Below are positions 24,375 to 31,044 of a DNA stretch of 64,000 bases, piece by piece. Origin of the DNA: Alphaproteobacteria bacterium. Lineage in GTDB: Bacteria; Pseudomonadota; Alphaproteobacteria; Oceanibaculales; Oceanibaculaceae. Each line of letters begins with the position of its first letter. The stretch's first letter is position 1. The stretch is taken from positions 496,001 to 560,000 of the forward strand of contig JAHJHR010000017.1 of the NCBI GenBank assembly GCA_018823745.1, given 5' to 3'. The position numbers and the translations under genes were made by a program. The notes beneath the pieces were generated by a model. It saw nothing but the letters and a program-made list of their open reading frames with translations. It was not told where the DNA came from and did not search any database.

Positions 24375-24626
24375 TCAGCTGGCCGCGTCGAAGGGTTCGC
24401 TGGAAACCGCGCCATCGGGGCCGAGCTTGATGCGGTCGACCTTCAGCTGCGCATCCTTCAGCTTGGCGTCGCAATGTTCCTTCAGCTTCGCGCCGCGCTC
24501 ATAGGCGTCGATGGAATCCTCCAGGCCGATCTGGCCTTGCTCCAGCTTGGAGACAATCGTCTCCAGCTCCGCCAGGGCCTGTTCGAAGCTCATCGCCTCG
24601 ATATCGGCGTGCTTGTTGTCACTCAT
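24375..24626 (-). CDS. xseB: Exodeoxyribonuclease VII small subunit
   Basis: XseB is the small helical partner of XseA in exonuclease VII, which degrades single-stranded DNA. The 83-residue protein carries the family core FEQALAELETIVSKLEQGQ and LEDSIDAYERGAKL. I start at ATG 24626 (MSDNKHADIE); the ORF-track start at 24707 adds 27 unrelated residues. It heads the xseB-ispA-dxs-tlyA operon and ends 9 bp before the ispA GTG. xseA is not in the window. Confidence 0.94.
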   Translation of the reverse strand: MSDNKHADIEAMSFEQALAELETIVSKLEQGQIGLEDSIDAYERGAKLKEHCDAKLKDAQLKVDRIKLGPDGAVSSEPFDAAS

Positions 24627-24946
24627 CGTCCTGCCTTGCTCTGACCGCCGGGATAGGGTGGCGGAGTTTAGCGACCCCGCCCGGCCGGAACAAGCGGGCT
24701 GGCTCACTATGGACAGGGAGCAGCCCGGCTTTTACCTTCCGTTCATCAATACTTGGCACACTTGATATATCGACATCGCCGTAAATGCCTCCGCTATCGC
24801 TTGCGGGGGCGCGGCCGGCGAAACATACTGGCATTACTGGCCATAAAAAAAACAAAGCGCTTTGTGGGGGCGTCCGTGGCCAAACGGGTATCAACAACAC
24901 CGAAGAATTTCGGTGAAAGCCTTGGGGCAGACGGGAAAAAGAACCG
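24627..24946. other. 320-bp intergenic region between divergent xseB and prp1
   Basis: The region must hold the promoters of the minus-strand xseB operon and the plus-strand pentapeptide gene. It is locally richer in A/T than its neighbours, with an A-tract beginning near 24844. A 14-bp perfect palindrome at 24852-24865 is the only clear element. No convincing small ORF or RNA structure is visible. Confidence 0.5.
24852..24865. promoter_or_regulatory. 14-bp perfect palindrome, candidate operator
   Basis: ACAAAGCGCTTTGT reads identically on both strands and lies about 82 bp upstream of the GTG of the first pentapeptide-repeat gene, just after an A-rich run. Position and symmetry suit binding by a dimeric regulator. 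No bound protein can be named. Confidence 0.4.
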
Positions 24947-26179
24947 GTGACACCGCAGGAAATCGCCGCGATCATCGACCAGCACGAGCGCTGGTTGACT
25001 CGACGCAAGGGGGGAGTGCGCGCCAGCCTGGCGATGCGCGATCTGTCAGGGCTCACGCTGGGCGGGGCCAATCTGCGCGGCGCCAATCTGGCGGGCGCCA
25101 ATCTGCACCGCACGGTGCTGTTCAACTGCGACATGGAAGAAGCGGATTTGTTCTGCGCCACGCTGGACCGTGCCGATCTGCGCCAGGCCAATCTGCGCAA
25201 GGTCGATATGCGGGGCTGCAGCCTGAAGCGCGCCAATCTGAACAACGCCAATCTGGAACTGGCGGATTTTCGGGGTGGAGCACTCTATGGCGCGGCAGGC
25301 ACCGATTCGGAGCGCATGCGCAACGCCAACAGCAATGGCGCGGATCTGTCCAATTCCGCGATGATGAACTGCAACCTGAAGGGTGCCACGCTGACCGGCG
25401 CCAATCTGTCAGGCGTCAATCTGAAGGGCGCCGATCTGACCGGGGCCAATCTGACCGGCGTGAACCTGTCCGAAGCCAATCTGACCGGCGCCAATCTGTC
25501 GGGGGCGAATCTGAAGGGCGCCATCGTCAACAACGCCATTCTGAAGAATGCGGTGCTGGTCGGTGCCAATCTGGAAGAAATCGACATGTCGGCGGTCGAT
25601 ATGACCGGCGCCACCCTGGCGACGGCGGATGAAGGATTGCCGCCCGATATCCGCAAGATTCTGGACGAGCATGCGCTGTGGATCAAGGGGCAGGCCGGTA
25701 AGGGCGAACGCGCCATACTGAGCGGCACGGATCTGAGCTACATGGATTTTACCGGCACCAATCTGAGCGGTGCCGAAATACGCGACGCCAAGCTGATCGG
25801 CATACGGCTGAATGGTTGCCGGCTGGTGATGTCGGACCTGTCACGCTCGGTGATGACCAATGCGGAAATCAAGCAGGCCATCCTGGACGGCACCAATCTG
25901 GTCGATACTGACCTGTCGGGTGCCAATCTGAGCGGCACCAGCCTGGGCCCGGTCGATCTGAAAGACAGCCAGGGCCGAGAGACGGGCCGCAAATGGCCGA
26001 CCAACCTCGCCGGAGCCAAGCTGCGCGGCGCCAATCTGACCGGCGCCGATCTGCGCCTCGCCAATCTGATGGATGCCGATCTGACCGATGCCATCCTGAC
26101 CGACGCCAATCTGACCGGGGCCAATCTGACGGATGCGATGCTTGATGGTGTCGATATGCAGCGCGTGGTGATGGAGTAA
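24947..26179 (+). CDS. Two-module pentapeptide-repeat protein, paralogue 1
   Basis: A 410-residue protein made mostly of A(N/D)LxG pentapeptides, which fold as a right-handed quadrilateral beta-helix. It has two modules. Each begins with a short helical cap of the form IIDxHxxW (residues 6-16, repeated as IRKILDEHALW at 235-245), then a G-rich turn with RAxL, then repeats (about 27-226 and 255-410). A break with RETGRKWPTNLAGA lies at 344-357. Signal peptide and membrane segments are absent, so it should be cytosolic. The start is GTG 24947 (MTPQEI), matching the start of paralogue 2. The function is unknown; some pentapeptide proteins mimic DNA and protect gyrase, but nothing shows that here. 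Confidence 0.88.
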   Translation: MTPQEIAAIIDQHERWLTRRKGGVRASLAMRDLSGLTLGGANLRGANLAGANLHRTVLFNCDMEEADLFCATLDRADLRQANLRKVDMRGCSLKRANLNNANLELADFRGGALYGAAGTDSERMRNANSNGADLSNSAMMNCNLKGATLTGANLSGVNLKGADLTGANLTGVNLSEANLTGANLSGANLKGAIVNNAILKNAVLVGANLEEIDMSAVDMTGATLATADEGLPPDIRKILDEHALWIKGQAGKGERAILSGTDLSYMDFTGTNLSGAEIRDAKLIGIRLNGCRLVMSDLSRSVMTNAEIKQAILDGTNLVDTDLSGANLSGTSLGPVDLKDSQGRETGRKWPTNLAGAKLRGANLTGADLRLANLMDADLTDAILTDANLTGANLTDAMLDGVDMQRVVME

Positions 26180-26193
26180 AACGCCAGCGGCAC

Positions 26194-27729
26194 TCAGCCG
26201 ACGGCAGCCGGGCGGGCGATTTCGGCGATCCGGCTGATCGGCAGGCGCACCGTGGCTGTTGTGCCCTTGCCCAGTGCACTTTCCAGAACGAATGTGCCGC
26301 CATGCAAATCGACCAGAGAGTTGACCAGCGGCAGGCCGAGGCCAGTTCCCTCGAACTGACGGCTCAGCGCTCCGTCGACCTGGCCGAAAGGCGCCAGGGC
26401 CTTGGCGATATTCTCCGGCGCGATGCCGATGCCGGTATCGCGTACGGCAACCTCCACGGCCCCGTTCTTCGCCTGGCGCGTGATGATGGTCACCGTGCCT
26501 TCCGGGCGGGTGAATTTCACCGCATTGGACAGCAGGTTGAACAGGACGTGCTTGAAGGCCCGTTCATCGACCCGGACATAGGGCAGATTAGCGTAGAACT
26601 GCCGCTCGATCTGAAGCGCACCGCGCTCCGCGCGCGGCAGGATCAGGCGCAGGCAGCTTTCGATGGTCCGGTGCATATCCACCAGCTGCTCGGTGAGATG
26701 GAACTTACCGGCCTCGATGCGTGACAGATCGAGGATATCGTTGATCGTCTCCAGCAGATGCGCGCCGCTTTCGTAGATATCCGTGGCATATTCCCGATAG
26801 CGCGGATGGCCGATGGCGCCGATGGTCTCGTTCTTGATCATCTCGGAAAAGCCGATGATGGCGTTTAGCGGCGTGCGCAGCTCATGGCTCATATTAGCCA
26901 GGAATTCCGACTTGGCCTTGCTGGCGGCCTCCGCCTGCTCCTTCGCCAGCAGCACCTGCAACTCAAAGCGCTTGCGCTCGGTGATGTCGCGCAGGAAGAC
27001 CAGTACTTCATCCGCCGTCATCATGACAATACGCGCCTCAAGGTCGCGCGCTTCGTCGCCGATATCCCATTTGAATTCGAATATCCGGGTCATGCCGGTC
27101 GACAGCGCCGCGGCGATCTCCGTCATTGCCATCTCGGCGACCGAGGCAGGCAGCGCCTCCTTTACCGGGCGGCCCATCAGATGAATCGGCGCCAGCTTCA
27201 GCACCGTATCCTTGCCTTCCTCGATGTCCAGCAGGATGCCGCTGCGGCTGATGCGCAGCACCGTGTCGGGAATGGCGCTGATCAGGGCCTCGTTCTTGCG
27301 CTCGCTCTGCAGCAGGGCGTGTTCGATGCGCTTCACATCCGTCAGGTCCAGAACTGTGCCCAGCAGATGCACCGTACCGTCCAGGGCCACGCCGACCGGC
27401 GCCAGATGAATACGCCACCAGATCCGCCCATGCGGCAGGGTGACGACCTCGTCATAGGTCTGCGGGGTCATGCGCTCAATGCAGCGTCGCAGATTACCAC
27501 GCACCACGGGTATCTCATGCGGCGCCACGAGATCGACGGGGCCAAGCCCGATGATCTCCTCGCCCGCCATGCCAACAAGTTCGGCGAACAGCGTGTTGAC
27601 CCGGCTGAATCGTATCGTGCCATCCGGCCCTGCATCCAGCAGAAACGCGCCACATAGCGAGTTAGAGAATACCCCGTCCAGCAGGGTATTTTCCGCTATT
27701 GGCGTCGATATGGGTGCGTCTTGGGTCAA
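26194..27729 (-). CDS. Soluble PAS-domain sensor histidine kinase
   Basis: A 511-residue cytoplasmic histidine kinase with no membrane segment. Two PAS domains (about 18-130 and 142-252) precede a HisKA domain with phospho-acceptor H282 (ANMSHELRTPLNAIIGFSEM) and a HATPase domain containing the N box (NLLSNAVKFT), G1 (DTGIGIAPEN) and G2 (GTGLGLPLV). No receiver domain or response regulator gene is adjacent, so it is an orphan kinase. The annotated start is a TTG (27729) with a weak ribosome-binding site, so the first residues are uncertain. It converges on pentapeptide gene 1 with 14 bp between stops. Confidence 0.9.
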   Translation of the reverse strand: MTQDAPISTPIAENTLLDGVFSNSLCGAFLLDAGPDGTIRFSRVNTLFAELVGMAGEEIIGLGPVDLVAPHEIPVVRGNLRRCIERMTPQTYDEVVTLPHGRIWWRIHLAPVGVALDGTVHLLGTVLDLTDVKRIEHALLQSERKNEALISAIPDTVLRISRSGILLDIEEGKDTVLKLAPIHLMGRPVKEALPASVAEMAMTEIAAALSTGMTRIFEFKWDIGDEARDLEARIVMMTADEVLVFLRDITERKRFELQVLLAKEQAEAASKAKSEFLANMSHELRTPLNAIIGFSEMIKNETIGAIGHPRYREYATDIYESGAHLLETINDILDLSRIEAGKFHLTEQLVDMHRTIESCLRLILPRAERGALQIERQFYANLPYVRVDERAFKHVLFNLLSNAVKFTRPEGTVTIITRQAKNGAVEVAVRDTGIGIAPENIAKALAPFGQVDGALSRQFEGTGLGLPLVNSLVDLHGGTFVLESALGKGTTATVRLPISRIAEIARPAAVG

Positions 27730-27994
27730 GGGCAGCGAATCCGGCTTTCAGAGGCCTGGGGGCAAGGGAAAACAGATCACCTCTCACCGCAGCGAAAGGC
27801 AACACACGGAGAAAAGGTCAAAAATCTGTGCCATAGGCCTCAAGGATAAGGTAATAGCTTGATAACGCTTTGGAAGGGCATCCGTGTGGATAACCGTTTT
27901 TTATCGTTTCAGACGAAGCTCATGTCCCATGATGCTGTCTCGCTCCGCAGATGCTATAAATCAATTCTGACCAATTCTGGCGGCAGGTTTCCAA

Positions 27995-28357
27995 ATGATA
28001 CCACTAAATAAGGAAAATGCGCGGAATGCGCTGCTGACGCTGGTCAGCCGTCAGTTCGACGACATCGCCGAACGTATCAGCCGGGACATCCACCAGCATG
28101 CCAATGGCAGCCCGGTGCCGGCAGCCGTGGGGTTCATGATGTATTTCCTGCGCAATGCGGATGGCGAACCGCTGAAGGACACGATCGTGAACCGATACGG
28201 CGTCACCCGGGCCCATATGGAAGAAACCACCGGCTTCCGGAAATTGCGGGATGCCTGCCAGAAGAAGCAGCTTGGTGCGCGTCTGGAAGAGCATTTCTAT
28301 GCCCATCAGCCCAACCTGACCCGGATATACAAGGTCGTGGTCGATGGCTGGTCTTAA
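27995..28357 (+). CDS. Uncharacterised 120-residue protein between the pentapeptide genes
   Basis: I do not recognise this protein. It is soluble, with no signal peptide or membrane segment, and is predominantly helical by eye (QFDDIAERISRDIHQHAN; KLRDACQKKQLGARLEEHF). It contains one central hydrophobic stretch (AAVGFMMYFL) and a strand-like C-terminus (RIYKVVVDGW). Basic and polar residues suggest a nucleic-acid or protein-binding role, but that is a guess. The ATG at 27995 follows a 265-bp gap after the kinase start. It lies 130 bp upstream of pentapeptide gene 2 on the same strand. Confidence 0.7.
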   Translation: MIPLNKENARNALLTLVSRQFDDIAERISRDIHQHANGSPVPAAVGFMMYFLRNADGEPLKDTIVNRYGVTRAHMEETTGFRKLRDACQKKQLGARLEEHFYAHQPNLTRIYKVVVDGWS

Positions 28358-28487
28358 CGCTTGATTAAAGGGTTATGCGCCTTGATGGCCCACCGCCCAC
28401 GGCATAGGATGCCGACCACGTGATCGATACTATATTCAACCTGGATCACTTCTCGATCCAAGCCTGCCCCTTAACCGCAGTATCACG

Positions 28488-29774
28488 ATGACCCCCCAGG
28501 AAATCCTGCAGATCATCCAGCGCCACGAATTCTGGCTAGAGCGCAAGCCGGGCGGGACACGCGCGAATCTGTCCGGCATGAACCTGTCGGGCTTCCATCT
28601 GGCCGATCTGAACCTGCAATCGGCGAAATTCTCCGGCGCCAATCTCAGCCGCTGCATCCTGTCGGGCGCCGATCTCAGCTATTGCGATCTGTTCTGCGTC
28701 AATCTGGATGCCGCCGACCTGCGCAGCGCCGTGCTGCATCGCGCCGATCTGCGCGGCGCGCATCTGCGCAACGCCAATTTCACCGGCGCCAATCTGAAAG
28801 AGGCTGACCTGCGCGGCGGCGCGCTGATCAGCGGCAATCCGGCCAGCCCCGCCACTATGCTGCGCGCCGATCTCAGCTTTGCCGAGCTGGATTCGGCCGT
28901 TCTGCAAAGCGCGAACATGTCGGGCGCCGATCTGTCCAACGCGACCATGGTCGAAGCCTCCCTGGAAGGCGCCCTGCTCTGCGGCGCCAATCTGTCGGGC
29001 GTCAATCTGCGCGGCGCGAAGCTGGAGGGCGCTGATCTGTCCGGCGCCAATCTGACCGGCACCAACCTGTCGGAAAGCGACCTGACCGGCGTCAACCTGA
29101 CCGGGGCGATCATTGCCAAGACGGTCATGAGCCGGGCCGAGCTGAACCGCGCGATCCTGACCAATGTCGATCTCAGCGGCGCCGATCTGACCGGGGCGCA
29201 TCTGGCCGAAACCCGCACCGCCCTGTCACGCTCGATCAAGGACATCATCCGCGACCATCTGAAATGGGTGGAAAGCGATGGCGTCGTCGGCTCCCGGGCG
29301 GAGCTGGGCAAGGCCGATCTGAGCCGACAGGATCTCACCGGCGCCAATCTGTCGGGTGCCGATCTGCGCGGCGCGGTCCTGGTCGGTGCACGGATGGCGG
29401 GCATACAGCTGGTGATGTCCGATCTGTCCGAATCCAATCTGGAAGGGGCCGATCTGGAAGGCGCTGTCCTGGACGGCATCAATCTCAGCAACGCCAATCT
29501 GTCCTCCGCACGGCTGCGTGGCGCGCAGCTCAGCGCGGTGGATATCAAGAACAACGAGGGCCGCTCGACCGGCCGGCTCTGGCCCGCCAATCTTGCCGGA
29601 GCCAACCTGTCGCGGGCTGACCTGACCAACGCGCTGCTTACCGGCGCCAATCTGGCGAAGGCCGATCTCACCGGGGCGAAGCTGCACAATACCAATCTGG
29701 TCGATGCCAATCTGCGCGACGTGACGGTTGATCCGTCGCAACTCACCCTGGCGGTCACGCTCAAGCCCGAGTGA
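28488..29774 (+). CDS. Two-module pentapeptide-repeat protein, paralogue 2
   Basis: A 428-residue full-length paralogue of the protein encoded at 24947-26179. It has the same plan: a helical cap EILQIIQRHEFW (5-16), pentapeptide module 1 (about 26-240), a second cap IKDIIRDHLKW (250-260), and module 2 (about 270-412) interrupted by RSTGRLWPANLAGA (359-372). The phrases DLFC, LVMSDLS and the GRxTGRxWPxNLAGA insert occur in both proteins at matching places, so the whole two-module form was duplicated. Cytosolic; biochemical role unknown. The start is ATG 28488 (MTPQEI). Confidence 0.9.
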   Translation: MTPQEILQIIQRHEFWLERKPGGTRANLSGMNLSGFHLADLNLQSAKFSGANLSRCILSGADLSYCDLFCVNLDAADLRSAVLHRADLRGAHLRNANFTGANLKEADLRGGALISGNPASPATMLRADLSFAELDSAVLQSANMSGADLSNATMVEASLEGALLCGANLSGVNLRGAKLEGADLSGANLTGTNLSESDLTGVNLTGAIIAKTVMSRAELNRAILTNVDLSGADLTGAHLAETRTALSRSIKDIIRDHLKWVESDGVVGSRAELGKADLSRQDLTGANLSGADLRGAVLVGARMAGIQLVMSDLSESNLEGADLEGAVLDGINLSNANLSSARLRGAQLSAVDIKNNEGRSTGRLWPANLAGANLSRADLTNALLTGANLAKADLTGAKLHNTNLVDANLRDVTVDPSQLTLAVTLKPE

Positions 29775-29841: not shown

Positions 29842-31044
29842 ATGCCCGACGACGCGACCCAACCCGCGCCTGGGTCTCTGACGGCCCGTATTGTCGCACG
29901 CATCGACGATATCGCGGCGGCGGAGTGGGATGCCTGCGCCGGACCGGATAATCCCTTCGTCAGCCATGCCTTCCTCTCCGCCTTGGAGGAGTCCGGCTCG
30001 GTCGGCCCGCAAAGCACCGGCTGGCTGCCGCAGCATGTCGCCATCAACGATTCCGATGGCCGGCTGCTGGCCTGCGCGCCAGCCTATATCAAGCTGCATT
30101 CCTATGGCGAATACGTGTTCGACCATGGCTGGGCCGACGCCTTTGAACGCGCCGGCGGGCGCTATTATCCCAAGCTGCAGATCTGCGTGCCCTTCACCCC
30201 TGCCCCCGGGCCGCGCCTGCTGGTCCGGCCCGGCGAGGATGTGGCCGGGCTGCGCCAGGCGATGATCGCAACTTTAACTGAATTCTGCGAGCAGGCGGGC
30301 CTGTCCTCCCTGCACATCACCTTCCCCAGCGAGGCCGAATACGAGCTGGCCGGCGATATCGGCCTGATCCAGCGCATCGGCCAGCAATTCCACTGGCATA
30401 ATGACGGCTATGCCAGCTTCGAGGATTTCCTGGCCGCGCTGAATTCCCGCAAGCGCAAGCAGATCCGCAAGGAACGCCGCGAGGCCCAGGCCGGCGGCGT
30501 CACACTGCGCGCCTATTCCGGCGCGGAACTGAAGCCCGAGCATTGGGATGCGTTCTACCGCTTCTACGAAAACACCAGCGACCGCAAATGGGGCTCCGCC
30601 TACCTGACCCGTGATTTCTTCCAGCTGCTGGGCGAGCGGATGGGCGACAGGGTCGTGCTGTTCCTGGGCGAGGAGGAAGGCCATGAGGGCACCGGTGCCT
30701 ATGTCTGCGGCGCGCTGAATCTGGCAGGCACCGACACGCTCTACGGCCGCAACTGGGGCTGCGAGGAGCATGTGAAATTCCTGCATTTCGAGGCCTGCTA
30801 CTACCGCGCCATCGACTGGGCCATTGAATACGGCTTCAAGCGCGTGGAGGCCGGCGCCCAGGGTCCGCACAAGATCCAGCGCGGCTATCTGCCAACCCCG
30901 ACCTATAGCGCCCACTGGATCGCCCATCCCGGCCTGCGCGACGCCGTCGACAAGGCGATGCGCCGCGAGCGCCCGGCTGTGCTGGCCGAGATCGACGCCC
31001 TGACCGCTGAATACAGCCCTTACCGGCAGGAGGGCGAGGGCTAG
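29842..31044 (+). CDS. DUF482 / FemAB-like acyltransferase
   Basis: A 400-residue protein of the PF04339 (FemAB_like, DUF482) family, related to the GNAT/Fem fold of aminoacyl or acyl transferases. Family landmarks include an N-terminal NPFVSHAFLSALEESGS block, a basic stretch LNSRKRKQIRKERREA and a distal GRNWGC / HFEACYYRAIDWAIE region. Name-based links to peptidoglycan are weak; the natural acceptor is unknown. The ATG at 29842 follows GAGGTCAGC. The gene is solitary and ends 33 bp before a REP-like element. Confidence 0.85.
   Translation: MPDDATQPAPGSLTARIVARIDDIAAAEWDACAGPDNPFVSHAFLSALEESGSVGPQSTGWLPQHVAINDSDGRLLACAPAYIKLHSYGEYVFDHGWADAFERAGGRYYPKLQICVPFTPAPGPRLLVRPGEDVAGLRQAMIATLTEFCEQAGLSSLHITFPSEAEYELAGDIGLIQRIGQQFHWHNDGYASFEDFLAALNSRKRKQIRKERREAQAGGVTLRAYSGAELKPEHWDAFYRFYENTSDRKWGSAYLTRDFFQLLGERMGDRVVLFLGEEEGHEGTGAYVCGALNLAGTDTLYGRNWGCEEHVKFLHFEACYYRAIDWAIEYGFKRVEAGAQGPHKIQRGYLPTPTYSAHWIAHPGLRDAVDKAMRRERPAVLAEIDALTAEYSPYRQEGEG

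Follow-up and report, generated by a model that had tools for sequence, protein, structure and literature searches.

Organization of the locus

The window, i.e. the 64,000-nucleotide stretch of an Oceanibaculum genome analysed here, hosts two genes encoding pentapeptide-repeat proteins made of two modules, called PPR-A and PPR-B, which enclose the genes for a histidine kinase, HK, and for an uncharacterised protein, U120 (Table 1). The coordinates 24947-29774 and the sizes of PPR-A, PPR-B and U120 (410, 428 and 120 aa) given in an earlier note on this DNA were borne out. PPR-A and HK are tail to tail, 14 bp apart, and PPR-B starts 130 bp after U120. Upstream of PPR-A the minus strand carries xseB, ispA and dxs; typA is found 6.4 kb away from PPR-B. 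Gene names not resulting from the Pfam scan have been assigned by reading the sequences. Promoter and terminator scans identified sites no more frequent than in shuffles.

Table 1. Features of the PPR-A/PPR-B locus and of a second kinase-PPR pair.
Feature	Residues	Position	Strand	Basis or remark
xseB (exonuclease VII small subunit)		24375-24707	-	divergent from PPR-A; indicates where A lay ancestrally
PPR-A, two-module pentapeptide-repeat protein, GTG start	410 aa	24947-26179	+	PF00805, alignment, A clade
PPR-A first cap IIDQHERW	9-16	24971-24994	+	
PPR-A central cap ILDEHALW	238-245	25658-25681	+	
PPR-A module-2 insert GRETGRKWPTNLAGA	343-357	25973-26017	+	
HK, cytoplasmic PAS-PAS-HisKA-HATPase histidine kinase, TTG start	511 aa	26194-27729	-	domain scan
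HK/U120 intergenic region, 265 bp between divergent starts		27730-27994	.	possible shared control region; same divergent order in L040, L041
U120, uncharacterised, first gene of the U120-B pair	120 aa	27995-28357	+	profile searches
PPR-B, two-module pentapeptide-repeat protein	428 aa	28488-29774	+	PF00805, model; clade of U120-linked B proteins
PPR-B first cap IIQRHEFW	9-16	28512-28535	+	helix 3-19 in model
PPR-B central cap IIRDHLKW	253-260	29244-29267	+	inter-module linker, low model confidence
PPR-B module-2 insert GRSTGRLWPANLAGA	358-372	29559-29603	+	
FemAB-like acyltransferase (PF04339)		29842-31044	+	Pfam; 68 bp past PPR-B
Second kinase-PPR pair		L019:5188-7671 (G000:C18, ~155.2-157.7 kb)		also L156, L157, L158; conserved order uvrA-ssb-HK-PPR-gyrA

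The A-HK-U120-B-FemAB block is found in identical order in 4/4 Oceanibaculum genomes; the locus of Oceanibaculum pacificum (NZ_LPXN01000090) was matched by the U120 profile described below. Among the genomes seen, all four genes (A, HK, U120, B) occur together only in this genus, and among the loci seen the same holds for the FemAB-like gene next to B. Amino acid identity to the window proteins is 74-83% for A, 49-74% for HK, 60-81% for U120 and 84-92% for B, so that within the genus constraint is strongest on PPR-B and weakest on HK. A literature search retrieved nothing combining Oceanibaculum and pentapeptide repeats.

A family of two-module pentapeptide-repeat proteins

PPR-A and PPR-B align along their entire length with 47% identity, and are full-length paralogues, as the earlier note had proposed. 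Both are members of the pentapeptide-repeat superfamily (PF00805, E-values of 5.5e-84 and 1.2e-85 for A and B, respectively), in which tandem A(D/N)LXX repeats build a quadrilateral beta-helix. An IIxxHxxW cap had been described at the start of each module; two caps are indeed present in either protein, but the central one of PPR-A deviates in sequence (Table 1). The insert reported in the second module is carried by both.

Proteins of about 400-450 aa in which a central HxxW...GxxGxRA cap lies between two modules are defined here as the two-module cap PPR family, to which both A and B belong. The same genome encodes five more proteins of the two-cap, two-module build, and a central cap profile retrieved exactly the seven proteins, plus one weak match to a first cap. 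Full-length PPR-B relatives (E up to 1e-70) have been identified in 64 of the 385 alphaproteobacterial genomes searched, representing 46/276 genera. The two-cap plan, regarded at the outset as rare, is therefore that of a widespread alphaproteobacterial family. According to a strict pattern, 59 of 83 collected proteins feature both caps, and 79 at least one; the insert is found in 46/83 (strict) to 57/83 (loose) of them. H13, G23 and R25 in the first cap, and H257, W260, G265, G268 and R270 in the second, are near-invariant across the family. When Pseudomonadota were surveyed, the central cap profile matched sequences in 7/200 genomes, and 17 of the 18 matches fell in frames of 358-627 aa, so that the caps are not ubiquitous in unrelated single pentapeptide proteins. 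This distribution indicates that the caps define a family, being neither unique to the A/B pair nor general among pentapeptide proteins. A search of plasmids retrieved only distant two-module PPRs, in Azospirillum.

Association of U120 with PPR-B

Searches of Pfam, NCBIfam, PADLOC and PDB sequences gave no convincing match for U120, which is therefore as unrecognised in Pfam and NCBIfam as it had been on first reading; the best E-value among PDB sequences was ~1. A U120 profile identified homologues in 12/385 alphaproteobacterial genomes, which belong to 8 genera and 6 families; in a draw of 299 Pseudomonadota genomes two were positive, both already among the known ones. Plasmids contained no U120 match, and a pattern search found none in viral contigs.

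The neighbourhoods of the 12 genomes have all been inspected. In each, U120 is located directly upstream of a B-type PPR gene on the same strand, at a distance ranging from about -10 to 150 bp. The two frames overlap in L035, L037 and L041, and are separated by 2-30 bp in three other loci. The linkage is kept even where U120 identity is as low as 21-37%. No other gene immediately adjacent to the collected PPRs is spread across as many families as U120.

A maximum-likelihood tree was built from 82 two-module PPRs, including 11 full-length B proteins linked to U120 (the truncated L037 protein was excluded); these 11 form one clade, with support 95/90. No member of this clade lacks U120. Genomic linkage and phylogeny strongly suggest that U120 and PPR-B make up the obligate core of the block.

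PPR-A and the ancestral neighbourhood

In the same tree A proteins constitute a separate clade, which includes 12 sequences from five families (f1, f57, f97, f108, f123; support 100/98), and the A/B split predates these families. The paralogy pointed out in the earlier note is confirmed, but the duplication, judging from the tree, is ancient and not local. PPR-A adjoins U120-B in three of the six families (f1, f97, f108), and is present without U120 and B in a seventh, f57. Both f97 and f108 show the gene order ispA-xseB-HDAC-like-(MFP-RND)-A-U120-B. In two Oceanibaculum species, too, A is flanked by HDAC-like and xseB genes, and typA adjoins a PPR gene in f57 and f123. The recurrence of gene order across families points to long vertical inheritance.

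The histidine kinase

HK features two PAS domains followed by HisKA and HATPase_c domains, which identify it as a two-component kinase. No response regulator is encoded by the neighbours read (PPR-A, U120, PPR-B, dxs, ispA, xseB, the FemAB-like gene and two dehydrogenases), and the description of a two-PAS kinase devoid of a regulator is upheld. The DHp/ATPase core scores best against the PdhS (234 bits) and DivJ (226 bits) models, far below the equivalog cut-offs, which apply to longer proteins; the PAS domains of HK are only two in number. PdhS/DivJ-type kinases act on regulators encoded elsewhere.

Among 22 genomes, nearly full-length HK relatives with 45-51% identity (74% in O. pacificum) were found in Oceanibaculum, G122, G225 and G035. 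The kinase start is divergent from U120 in Oceanibaculum, G122 and G225, with no A at the locus in the latter two. A full-length HK relative is thus located divergently beside U120 in two families, f1 and f120. In G035 the kinase and U120 are both at contig ends with no shared sequence, and the kinase is preceded by the start of a short divergent frame; f33 is possibly a third family with this arrangement. In families f97, f108 and f123, which have U120-B, no full-length HK relative was present among the matches listed, and in f97 and f108 HK is missing from the block. Other nearly full-length matches (34-40% identity; G054, G233, G348, G150) lie in loci without two-module PPRs. In a tree of kinase cores, those of f1 and f33/f120 group together with unlinked kinases, with weak support. 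Two overlapping frames share the kinase sequence in the Oceanibaculum genome G001 (L017:10443-12000), because of either a sequencing error or gene decay or loss. HK is a recurrent but facultative neighbour of U120-B.

Other genes found close to two-module PPRs

A second kinase gene is tail to tail with a two-module PPR gene, at 8-59 bp, between ssb and gyrA in 4/4 Oceanibaculum genomes (Table 1). The genome under study contains 36 HisKA domains over cut-off in 3.97 Mb, and the finding of a kinase tail to tail with two of the seven PPRs therefore exceeds chance expectation, in a count made post hoc. In G004 and G099 as well, a kinase gene is next to a PPR gene, at 2 and 184 bp, respectively. 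An association of PPRs and kinases throughout the class was not established: kinases are immediate neighbours at 0/40 loci chosen by PPR-B similarity and at 2/8 loci of the L019-type set, against an expected number of about one (two neighbours per locus, roughly 1% kinases per genome).

Various other associations have been noticed. At L102, L103, L105, L106 and L093 (families f98, f114, f54 and f120), two or three two-module PPR genes are arranged in tandem, and U120 is absent between them. The gene for one of the seven PPRs of the genome under study (L003:81-1400) follows, after 43 bp, a gene whose product has a partial Ser/Thr kinase domain (PF00069). At four loci of family f52 (L074, L081, L091, L092) the two-module PPR gene has a phoU-like gene as its divergent neighbour. 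A small exported-looking protein is encoded tail to tail with PPR-B, at 2-11 bp, in f33 and f120 (L018:3001-3465 and L040:6036-6710; 24% identity). Unrecognised proteins of ~400-500 aa are encoded 5-113 bp from a two-module PPR in four families (L075:4660-5937, L085:4781-5980, L086:4806-6011, L099:7251-8777). They share 27-36% mutual identity, the L075 and L085 copies have no Pfam match, and they are possibly another dedicated PPR partner.

Structural models and comparison to known systems

The AlphaFold model of PPR-B, obtained from a shallow alignment, has a mean pLDDT of 79. An N-terminal helix (residues 3-19, modest confidence) is followed by a beta-helix extending to residue ~238, a low-confidence linker (240-269) including a short helix (251-257), and a second beta-helix starting at ~270, with a strand-rich insert at 345-366. 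Of the helical caps described in the earlier note, the first is supported as a helix by the model, but the central one falls in the low-confidence linker. The U120 model, built on a two-sequence input, has a mean pLDDT of 48, too low for use or for the prediction of an interface; candidate B-specific residues for an interface are only G30 and S45, and are uninformative.

The best natural match by E-value to PPR-B in Foldseek is HetL (3du1, TM 0.73 on HetL length). The Nostoc protein is similarly a right-handed quadrilateral beta-helix, but consists of a single module of ~237 residues, whereas A and B have two; the latter score 166 and 218 bits against NF047416, the HetL model, which has a cut-off of 260. 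We know of no report of a U120 or a kinase gene beside HetL. HetL acts by binding a protein partner, and by analogy PPR-B may do the same. Qnr, MfpA and AlbG share the fold of A and B, as indicated by Foldseek matches to QnrB1, MfpA and AlbG. In contrast to these proteins, A and B are twice as long, have a central HxxW linker and show here no evidence of a gyrase or drug role; their scores are below the cut-offs for Qnr (98 and 94 versus 240 bits) and MfpA (105 and 118 versus 360). A and B exceed the 125-bit cut-off of the Alr5209 family NF052603 (178 and 210 bits), a model of 113 positions, with a score summed over 5-6 repeat stretches. Alr5209 is a single module of 129 aa (PMC8145042); A and B, with two modules and 410 and 428 aa, differ from the single small module (~113-129 aa) of this family. 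In Caulobacter, YjbI is a secreted pentapeptide-repeat protein genetically linked to the two-component signalling systems UzcSR and ChvGI (PMC12864828). It resembles A and B as an alphaproteobacterial pentapeptide-repeat protein with a two-component connection, but A and B appear, from their sequences, to be cytoplasmic.

Proposed function and alternatives

The pentapeptide-repeat proteins of known action bind another protein, which is gyrase for Qnr and MfpA and, for HetL of Nostoc, the regulator HetR (PMC7476756, PMC8145042). Among candidate partners of PPR-B, U120 stands first, given that the two co-occur obligately, in a fixed gene order and with overlapping frames. The U120-PPR-B partnership is probably the functional core of the block, and physical binding of the two proteins appears, on the same genomic evidence, a reasonably good expectation. 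U120 and PPR-B would be an obligate pair, probably co-transcribed, in which U120, a putative small soluble partner, is encoded first, often in a frame overlapping that of B or at most 30 bp from it. PPR-B would provide a two-rod beta-helix scaffold for U120, with modules of ~215 and ~145 residues and an HxxW-type helical linker between them. PPR-A would be an ancient paralogue of B retained in the same neighbourhood, and HK a facultative, possibly regulatory addition. The divergent arrangement and the cytoplasmic PAS architecture make HK a plausible client or co-sensor of U120-B: where the kinase is present (f1, f120, possibly f33), U120-B would most likely sense with it or tune it, and HK output may pass through a response regulator encoded elsewhere. 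Modulation of HK by a U120-B complex is a tentative suggestion, in which our confidence is low. Still more speculative is the comprehensive reading, in which a previously unrecorded, dedicated U120-PPR-B complex would provide a divergently encoded cytoplasmic PAS kinase with a module for sensing or scaffolding, as one case of an alphaproteobacterial pairing of two-module PPRs and kinases of which ssb-HK-PPR-gyrA would be another; as a whole we hold it to be rather unlikely.

Synteny alone is able to hold neighbours together, which calls for caution on the U120-B partnership. In an old, slowly rearranging region (dxs-ispA-xseB ... typA) the four proteins could be independent bystanders, U120 and B sharing a transcript for convenience. 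The recurrence across families of the flanking xseB, ispA, HDAC-like and typA genes would fit, as would PPR-A without U120 and B in f57 and the blocks without HK in f97 and f108. The pair is however intact in f33, f120 and f123, where A or xseB does not flank it, which counts against pure bystander status; moreover, every U120 homologue found accompanies a B-clade PPR, and overlapping frames recur. The bystander reading is considered rather unlikely too. Co-directional MFP-RND operons located 62-274 bp upstream of A-U120-B in f97 and f108 (L035:1819-7583, L036:2132-7993, L039:8518-14372) raise the question whether the PPRs and U120 are envelope or drug-efflux accessories, assisting or regulating the neighbouring RND pump. 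An RND-like operon is also divergent from the tandem PPR pair at L093, and in Caulobacter YjbI has an effect on antibiotic sensitivity connected with efflux (PMC12864828). No RND match was found, however, in the fetched loci of Oceanibaculum, f33 and f123, or at U120-B of f120, and YjbI is secreted, whereas the N-termini of A and B read as a helix motif with no obvious signal peptide. An efflux role is improbable.

A modulation of gyrase or topoisomerase, of the type exerted by Qnr, MfpA and AlbG, is even less probable. The beta-helix fold is common to all these proteins, and a two-module paralogue adjoins gyrA in 4/4 Oceanibaculum genomes, but A and B themselves are not gyrA neighbours, score far under the curated Qnr and MfpA cut-offs, and have a modest net charge (about -8 and -9 over 410 and 428 residues). 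The placement of a short gene immediately before a longer one, with overlapping frames, is also reminiscent of toxin-antitoxin or anti-phage defence units. PADLOC yielded however no relevant match, the only ones being weak matches to the HATPase region of HK; U120 was matched neither in plasmids nor, by pattern, in viral contigs, and the block is syntenic and slowly evolving, not mobile. A defence function is hardly credible.

The partnership of U120 and PPR-B is the reading preferred here. The earlier note had suggested a functional cassette of four genes: the U120-B pair stands in six families and the block in 4/4 Oceanibaculum genomes, well past the one strain in which adjacency had been noticed, but there is no fixed four-gene unit, A and HK being more loosely associated, and a joint function stays conjectural. 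The unit suggested there exceeds the supported one by one or two genes.

The function of most pentapeptide-repeat proteins is not known (PMC8145042), and in 2020 the HetL-HetR complex was, to its authors' knowledge, only the second identified for a protein of this kind (PMC7476756). The databases searched here contain no record of the obligate U120-PPR-B pair, found across six families. A gene accompanying one PPR clade in every genome found to carry U120 is a concrete, testable partner, and its conservation is suggestive of a dedicated protein partnership, few of which are known in the pentapeptide-repeat family. Subfamilies with gene partners of their own can be told apart within a large alphaproteobacterial family of generic annotation, which offers a route to function.
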